In this document: positions 16,778 through 26,241 of the stretch, one piece after another
How positions within the stretch are numbered: the first letter of the stretch is position 1
Layout: every line of letters starts with the position of its first letter
Assembly (NCBI GenBank): GCA_947628685.1
Contig: CANRAT010000004.1
Coordinates: forward strand, 1-32,375
Reading direction: 5' to 3'
Source of the DNA: an uncultured Bacilli bacterium
Lineage (GTDB): Bacteria; Bacillota_I; Bacilli_A; RF39; UBA660
DNA length: 32,375 bases
Position numbers and translations under genes: made by a program
The notes under the pieces: generated by a model
Databases searched by the model: none
What the model was told of the DNA's origin: nothing
What the model saw: the letters and a program-made list of their open reading frames with translations, nothing else

Positions 16778-16821
16778 TAGTTGTCAGTCCTACTTTGAAA
16801 CACTAAATTGATAATAAATTT

Positions 16822-16916
16822 AAATTTTTCAAGTATAACAAAAGATGACTTGCAAAAAAGTCGCTTTTATGTTATTATGAATATGTCAAGGGAACTTGCA
16901 TAAAATAAAAAAGGGA
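16822..16916 (+). repeat. Direct repeat copy 1: promoter/leader block
   Basis: ~95 nt, 5 substitutions vs 17246-17340 (counted by eye); offset 424 bp. Confidence 0.95.
16850..16878 (+). promoter_or_regulatory. Promoter of structured RNA unit 1
   Basis: TTGCAA-17 nt-TATTAT; identical in unit 2. Confidence 0.75.
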
Positions 16917-17195
16917 ACATTCAGTTTTTTCGAGTTGAATGTCTACCCAAAATAAATTTGTTTAGGCACTTATTCTAGCGAATGAGTGTCATTTTTTTAT
17001 AACCACTATCATAATGATAAGGAGAAATAAAATGATAGTAATGAACTTGAGAACTTTTAAAATAAAAGTCTTAGTTTTCACTATATCAAACCTCCTTTCT
17101 ATAAAGATTGGAGGTAGACACTCAACAACTGATATTCCCTATAAAAAGTATACTATTTATTACATACAAAAACAAGTGTTTGAGTAATATTTTAT
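16885..17195 (+). ncRNA. Candidate structured RNA unit 1 (unassigned family)
   Basis: Promoter just upstream; hairpins 16887-16898, 16917-16942, 16965-16990 (11 bp), 17005-17039 (8 bp), 17090-17115; long-range closure 16913-16926/17127-17139; terminator-like hairpin 17158-17195. Confidence 0.6.
17032..17187 (+). CDS. Possible 51-aa small ORF inside RNA unit 1
   Basis: AAGGAG SD (17019-17024), ATG 17032: MIVMNLRTFKIKVLVFTISNLLSIKIGGRHSTTDIPYKKYTIYYIQKQVFE*. Not preserved in unit 2, so may be fortuitous. Confidence 0.3.
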   Translation: MIVMNLRTFKIKVLVFTISNLLSIKIGGRHSTTDIPYKKYTIYYIQKQVFE

Positions 17196-17245
17196 TAAAA
17201 AATTGTTATACTTCCTCTTTATACGTACCAGATTGAACTAAACTT

Positions 17246-17340
17246 GAATTTTTCGAGTATAACAAAAGACGACTTGCAAAAAAGTCGCTTTTATGTTATT
17301 ATGAATATGTCAAGGGAACTTGCATAAAATAGAAAAAGGA
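17246..17340 (+). repeat. Direct repeat copy 2: promoter/leader block
   Basis: GAATTTTTCGAGTATAACAAAAGACGACTTGCAAAAAAGTCGCTTTTATGTTATTATGAATATGTCAAGGGAACTTGCATAAAATAGAAAAAGGA. Confidence 0.95.
17274..17302 (+). promoter_or_regulatory. Promoter of structured RNA unit 2
   Basis: TTGCAA-17 nt-TATTAT. Confidence 0.75.
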
Positions 17341-17598
17341 TACATTTGACTCCAGAATCAAATGCAATCCCTTATGGAATGCATCTGAAATCAACTATTG
17401 TTGAAATCAGATGCTTTTGCTATTTTAGGAGTAAAATTATTACAACTAAGAATAGGAGTAATATTATGATAAATTGAGAAAGTTCTCTTTTTGTCATAAA
17501 TACCACCACCTTTCTTTTATCATTCGATAAATAGAAAGGGAAAGCATCTGATATATTTCAAATGTATCCATGAACATTATATCAAACAAATGTTCTTT
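17309..17598 (+). ncRNA. Candidate structured RNA unit 2 (unassigned family)
   Basis: Hairpins 17311-17322, 17338-17370, 17381-17414, 17438-17463, 17464-17499, 17509-17539; perfect 12-bp long-range closure 17338-17349/17558-17569; terminator-like hairpin 17572-17598. Confidence 0.6.
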
Positions 17599-17696
17599 AA
17601 GCAATACTTCCATTAAAATTATGTCTAATATATAAAATAATTTTAAAATATTGAGTTTTATATTTCATTTTGTTATAATTATATCGGTGTATATAT

Positions 17697-26105: not shown

Positions 26106-26111
26106 AAATGC

Positions 26112-26241
26112 AATTGGAAGTTATACCGTAGACAGTAGGGGAGAAATCTTAATAATCCTACCGAGGAACTTAAATACTAAAATAAGTTTAGTCTACACGT
26201 ATAGTGTAGACTTTTACGGTTTAAAGATTAGGAGGTGTATT
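26112..26241 (+). promoter_or_regulatory. L10 leader-type autoregulatory RNA with terminator hairpin
   Basis: ACCGTAGACAGTAGGGGAGAAATC...ATCCTACCGAGGA typical of L10 leaders; AGTCTACAC-gtata-GTGTAGACTTTT terminator with GTAGAC/GTCTAC antiterminator option. Confidence 0.8.

Follow-up and report, generated by a model that had tools for sequence, protein, structure and literature searches.

Two tandem candidate type I toxin–antitoxin loci from a many-copy family in uncultured gut Bacilli

We propose, with a probability of about 0.9, that each of two tandem repeat units in the analyzed window (32,375 nucleotides of an uncultured Bacilli bacterium; GCA_947628685.1, contig CANRAT010000004.1, positions 1 to 32,375) is a type I toxin–antitoxin locus. 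The basis is the conservation and strand of a short ORF, the copy number, the position of a terminator and the predicted folds; from these we infer transcription, toxicity, neutralisation and RNase III cutting. According to our model, the minus strand of each unit would be transcribed from its own promoter into an mRNA of ~240 nt for a 25-30-aa single-pass hydrophobic peptide. The 5′ end of this mRNA would pair with its 3′ end and the Shine-Dalgarno (SD) sequence would lie in a hairpin, holding translation back. The plus strand would be transcribed convergently from a shared promoter into a three-hairpin RNA of ~115 nt ending at a terminator by the toxin stop codon. By analogy with TxpA/RatA and BsrG/SR4, this antisense RNA would pair with the 3′ UTR of the toxin mRNA and RNase III would cut the duplex, keeping the toxin silent. 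In other words, the ~115-nt RNA would commit a self-locked toxin mRNA to degradation. When the antisense RNA drops, the processed mRNA would be translated and the peptide would damage the membrane.

The preliminary description of this DNA had proposed a novel structured RNA pair. A repeated, structure-conserving RNA-encoding element is indeed present and belongs to no Rfam family, but its units are best read as type I toxin–antitoxin loci, which leaves a new RNA class unneeded. The two units are spaced 424 nt apart and begin with a direct repeat of 102 nt that is 94% identical. The promoters reported earlier are in place, both with an upstream TG, and the leader hairpin CAAG-GGAA-CTTG (16887-16898 in unit 1) has an identical copy in unit 2.

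16815-16916, plus strand: unit 1 shared block, with antitoxin promoter, leader and toxin mRNA termination region; 94% identical to 17239-17340
17239-17340, plus strand: unit 2 shared block, 94% identical to the unit 1 block
16850-16878, plus strand: unit 1 antitoxin promoter TTGCAA-17-TATTAT, TG before the -10 box (promoter scan)
17274-17302, plus strand: unit 2 antitoxin promoter TTGCAA-17-TATTAT, TG before the -10 box (promoter scan)

Beyond these blocks the unit bodies have diverged in sequence yet retain their pairing. The stems of the second hairpin described before, H2, are real in both units (GGCACTTATTC/GAATGAGTGTC at 16965-16990 in unit 1 and GCATCTGAAATCAAC/GTTGAAATCAGATGC at 17381-17414 in unit 2), as is the closing helix of unit 2, GGATACATTTGA/TCAAATGTATCC, in which 17338-17349 is 100% complementary to 17558-17569. 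The Rfam comparison called for earlier gave zero credible matches across all 4227 families at gathering and permissive thresholds; the best off-threshold match of the permissive covariance-model search had an E value of 0.13. Within unit 2, a hairpin with T-rich flanks at 17269-17288 overlaps the antitoxin -35 region and scores as a terminator on both strands; it may serve as a reserve terminator, either of the toxin mRNA or of transcription arriving from upstream. The pair of units adjoins an ADP-ribosylglycohydrolase gene (PF03747, 15995-16777), which was not found beside the permease gene in the flanks of seven genus relatives. Elsewhere in the window, 26108-26226 is an ordinary ribosomal protein L10 leader (RF00557).

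The region had been described as having no long ORF. That is correct, but each unit carries a short minus-strand ORF with a strong SD, which had been missed.

16989-17081, minus strand (17081 to 16989): unit 1 toxin ORF, 30 aa, VKTKTFILKVLKFITIILFLLIIMIVVIKK, GTG start, directly behind the SD AGAAAGGAGG
17420-17497, minus strand (17497 to 17420): unit 2 toxin ORF, 25 aa, MTKRELSQFIIILLLFLVVIILLLK, ATG start, directly behind the SD AAAGAAAGGTGGTGG; subfamily dN/dS 0.13
17091-17098, minus strand: unit 1 toxin SD, AAAGGAGG; the predicted fold pairs it with ACCTCC at 17110-17115
17503-17513, minus strand: unit 2 toxin SD, AAAGGTGGTGG; partly paired to upstream CCTTTC in the predicted fold

The AGGA(G) elements formerly taken as SD-like on the plus strand are the complement of codons of these ORFs (e.g. 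CTC CTT, CTC CTA), and the actual SDs are complementary to CCTCCTTT (17091-17098) and CCACCACCTTT (17503-17513). Both peptides are very hydrophobic, with peak 15-residue hydropathy of 4.02 for the 25-aa and 3.69 for the 30-aa product. Two other candidates were dropped: a small plus-strand ORF of unit 1 (MIVMNLRTFK...) after AAGGAG, which has modest hydropathy, sense-strand ORFs having passed in 0/122 units, and a mimic of the 16S 3′ end (ACCTCCTTTCT, plus strand), which is explained as the complementary strand of the toxin SD region.

The leader was used as a pattern against a species-representative collection; the matches listed, pooled with loci fetched earlier, gave at least 122 distinct units. 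An ORF antisense to the leader, preceded by an SD and with a peak hydropathy of at least 3, is present in 102 of the 122, compared with 0/122 on the sense strand and 0/610 in dinucleotide shuffles. These units hold at least 79 distinct peptides, which fall into a few subfamilies (MTKRE..., MKTKTF..., MxKKDF..., MKKKDL..., MRKQEKYLCT...). In the four largest, dN/dS is 0.13, 0.42, 0.21 and 0.17, values pooled over pairs with within-genome copies included and possibly lowered somewhat by hydrophobic codon bias. As judged from these comparisons, the peptide ORF is under purifying selection and coding lies on the minus strand; the products are probably single-pass membrane peptides of 25-30 aa that act as toxins. 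Searching nine of the peptides against Pfam/NCBIfam, including TxpA/BsrG, Fst, Ldr, Hol_Tox and the other toxin families modelled there, gave no near-threshold match, and the PHROG and PADLOC families gave no match.

On the plus strand, transcription starts near 16885 and 17309, as suggested before, are plausible. Instead of the ~290-310-nt noncoding RNAs envisaged, the prediction is a transcript of ~115 nt that ends at the H2 hairpin, its intrinsic terminator. The terminator of unit 1 (16965-16990) is followed by ATTTTTTTAT.

16885-16998, plus strand: unit 1 antitoxin RNA, ~114 nt, with leader hairpin 16887-16898, middle hairpin and terminator hairpin 16965-16990 plus U-run; fold z -3.8
17309-17424, plus strand: unit 2 antitoxin RNA, ~116 nt, with terminator hairpin 17381-17414, then TTTTGCTATTTT; fold z -3.8; terminator position conserved in the family

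Across the family, an intrinsic-terminator-like hairpin with a T-run lies ~104 nt past the plus-strand start in 81/102 units, against 7/510 shuffles. Its placement is tight, 97-123 nt from the start, and it adjoins the toxin stop codon. The plus-strand transcript thus probably ends ~104 nt after the promoter, beside the toxin stop codon, and is predicted to fold into leader, middle and terminator hairpins (z -3.8). The sequence has a promoter, a terminator position and complementarity to the predicted toxin mRNA for this putative antisense RNA. Because the predicted antitoxin stops beside the toxin stop codon, it would be fully complementary to the 3′ UTR of the toxin mRNA and not to the start region or SD. 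In addition, most of the shared leader falls outside the toxin mRNA, past its 3′ end, and the pairing body has diverged together with the toxin; each RNA would therefore be expected to act chiefly on its own toxin.

The ends of the toxin mRNAs were placed from promoter and terminator.

16905-17140, minus strand: unit 1 toxin mRNA, ~236 nt, terminator hairpin 16913-16948; fold -71.1 kcal/mol, z -7.5, 5′ and 3′ ends paired
17328-17569, minus strand: unit 2 toxin mRNA, ~242 nt, 5′ GGAUACAUUUGA pairing with 3′ UCAAAUGUAUCC; fold -84.4 kcal/mol, z -9.6; consensus fold of 32 relatives
17147-17175, minus strand: unit 1 toxin promoter TTGTTT-17-TATACT, read directly from the sequence, below the promoter-scan threshold
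17576-17604, minus strand: unit 2 toxin promoter TTGCTT-17-TATAAT, TG before the -10 box, read from the sequence; the element recurs in aligned relatives

The -35 boxes of the toxin promoters are weak, and testing for promoters across the family (92/102 units vs 253/510 shuffles) discriminates weakly, since shuffled AT-rich DNA often passes. The predicted toxin mRNAs of 101 units have a median fold z of -8.2, and their 5′ and 3′ ends are predicted to pair in 83/101, compared with 258/1010 shuffles. In the predicted folds, a hairpin encloses the unit 1 SD, and part of the unit 2 SD is paired; at least 60% of the SD bases are paired in the predicted folds of 69% of 100 units. The consensus fold of 32 MTKRE-type relatives reaches -52.3 kcal/mol on the toxin strand vs -37.6 kcal/mol on the other strand, with double changes at 7 pairs on the toxin strand. 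Counts of G.U and A.C cells on the toxin strand are mixed (140 GU and 78 AC over the union of pairs, 3 vs 8 at the common pairs), and the strand assignment therefore rests on fold energy and the ORF. These models assign the long-range fold chiefly to the toxin mRNA; it would exist because the strand opposite the predicted antitoxin encodes a small hydrophobic peptide on an mRNA with paired 5′ and 3′ ends.

A search of related genomes, also called for earlier, brought far more matches than chance. The bacterium's own 1.29-Mb assembly holds more than 12 further copies, several of them in tandem, and more are found in genus relatives; the region matched 22 of 38 genomes, all genus members among them. 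A toxin HMM, built from peptides that include those of this genome, finds 17 places in it at E<=10, 12 of these at E<=1e-4. The 1.3-Mb genome thus has ~12–17 copies, a density near one per 100 kb. At E<=1e-4, a sample of 199 genomes from the class gives HMM matches in 11/25 same-family genomes (this one included) and zero outside that family. When 194 genomes of the order were sampled, 74 contained the leader pattern; every one of these belongs to the same family, and the reversed-pattern control is zero in every row. Among the genomes searched, copies were found only in one family of uncultured gut Bacilli. Named records among the matches listed are uncultured Bacilli, 'Tenericutes', Bacillales and Erysipelotrichaceae MAGs and Candidatus Ventrenecus, and the sample names of many listed records refer to rabbit ('Lapin') or ruminants. 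In seven genus relatives that share the permease and YgjP-like gene pair, the examined flank (up to ~1.5 kb) lacks such a unit, so the location looks accessory.

Of the 20 units that have no intact toxin by our criteria, 10 retain a recognisable toxin translation and 10 do not. The latter keep the leader and first hairpin, and 8/10 score a terminator before other sequence follows, so the antitoxin is probably a discrete unit of ~115 nt. Toxin-less orphan copies of the predicted antitoxin do exist. Orphans with promoter, leader and usually terminator, the toxin half being lost or absent, were seen in the same genome (C54:4038, L013) and at L038, L087, L108 (5759), L110, L135, L138, L151, L162 and L168. 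Decayed toxin ORFs, with a lost start, truncation or broken frame, lie beside intact leaders at L102, L106, L115 and L066. Tandem arrays occur at L132 (four units, mixing two toxin subfamilies), at L108 and at 16815-17604 of the window. It is conceivable, although rather unlikely, that the copies act as one lineage-wide type I network instead of isolated modules, with a nearly invariant promoter and leader, swappable toxin bodies and orphan antitoxins acting in trans (anti-addiction) against the toxins of other copies.

Could the peptides be small regulatory or structural membrane peptides, non-toxic and controlled by an antisense regulator? No named toxin family matched them, and their toxicity is deduced from their features. 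Even so, we regard this as very unlikely: size, hydropathy, end charges, SD sequestration, 5′-3′ pairing, a convergent antisense RNA and the multicopy habit jointly fit type I toxins (PMC8309996, PMC6733600, PMC4147584), and some units lost the toxin while the RNA was kept. A new class of ~300-nt structured noncoding RNA on the plus strand, with the minus-strand ORF incidental, would account for the conserved promoter, leader and fold and the missing Rfam match. It would leave unexplained a minus-strand ORF that 102/122 units retain, whose dN/dS is far below 1 and which has no comparable plus-strand counterpart, as well as the plus-strand terminator at ~104 nt and the better consensus fold of the minus strand, and is highly improbable.

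The dispersed and tandem copies, in a position that genus relatives do not share, might also recall a non-autonomous mobile element that folds through its inverted repeats and whose peptide is a passenger or a product of chance. The unit bodies, however, vary by subfamily while leader and toxin anatomy are retained, the ORF is under purifying selection, and plasmids, phages and viral contigs gave no match; we give this explanation almost no weight. The reading as type I toxin–antitoxin loci agrees with the features that sequence can address. The small (<60 aa), hydrophobic, usually cationic peptide is represented by products of 25 and 30 aa here and by ORFs in 102/122 units, and the SD-sequestering structure of the toxin mRNA, common though not universal in type I systems, is predicted. 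By these features the units are a new family of a known kind, and we found no description of it in the open-licence literature.

Gene callers and homology searches easily overlook short toxin genes of this kind, and reports of type I systems come from few phyla, in part owing to biased searching (PMC12390103). In this lineage the conserved leader of the antitoxin serves as a DNA tag and exposes a whole family, with at least 79 distinct peptides, among uncultured gut Bacilli with small genomes. The family is notable for its copy number, mosaic subfamilies and orphan antitoxins. It offers many natural pairs, both cognate and non-cognate, along with tandem duplicates, decayed copies and orphans, which make antitoxin specificity and anti-addiction testable by comparison.

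Among the closest known systems are TxpA/RatA and BsrG/SR4 of Bacillus subtilis, which have, as predicted here, a convergent toxin mRNA and antisense RNA with 3′ overlap and a short hydrophobic toxin. All Gram-positive type I systems described to 2014 have such a convergent 3′ overlap (PMC4147584). RatA promotes degradation and leaves the coding and initiation regions of txpA free of overlap (PMC4147584); the antitoxin predicted here also stays off these regions, with its terminator at the toxin stop codon and its 3′ overlap sparing the SD. TxpA, however, is longer (59 aa; PMC4147584), has like BsrG no sequence match to our peptides, and the two systems sit on the skin and SPbeta elements (PMC4147584), whereas we see many dispersed copies and found no phage link. 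Ibs/Sib of Escherichia coli shares the very short hydrophobic peptide (IbsC is ~19 aa; PMC8309996) and a multicopy habit, being first noticed as a repeated sequence in five copies (PMC4147584). Sib, though, covers the whole ibs ORF and its ribosome binding site (PMC4147584), and the units here are not Ibs/Sib because their predicted antitoxin ends at the toxin stop codon, leaving the ORF uncovered. AapA/IsoA of Helicobacter pylori is also present in several chromosomal copies and makes a small toxic protein (PMC6733600, PMC8309996). Membrane-associated type I toxins are hydrophobic, shorter than 60 aa and in general have cationic residues at their C-terminal end (PMC8309996); in AapA these residues are essential (PMC6733600, PMC8309996). 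AapA mRNAs are locked by a 5′-3′ long-distance interaction and SD-sequestering hairpins (PMC6733600, PMC8309996), as predicted here in the mRNA pairing of most units; the lineage and, presumably, the sequence differ, and our predicted antitoxin lies over the 3′ UTR of the toxin mRNA. Finally, CD2517.1-RCd8 and the other modules of Clostridioides difficile, 13 on the chromosome, have convergent toxin and antitoxin genes, and their toxins have no homology to other type I toxins (PMC6563280). These modules are known by experiment, whereas ours are known from sequence and likened to them by description.
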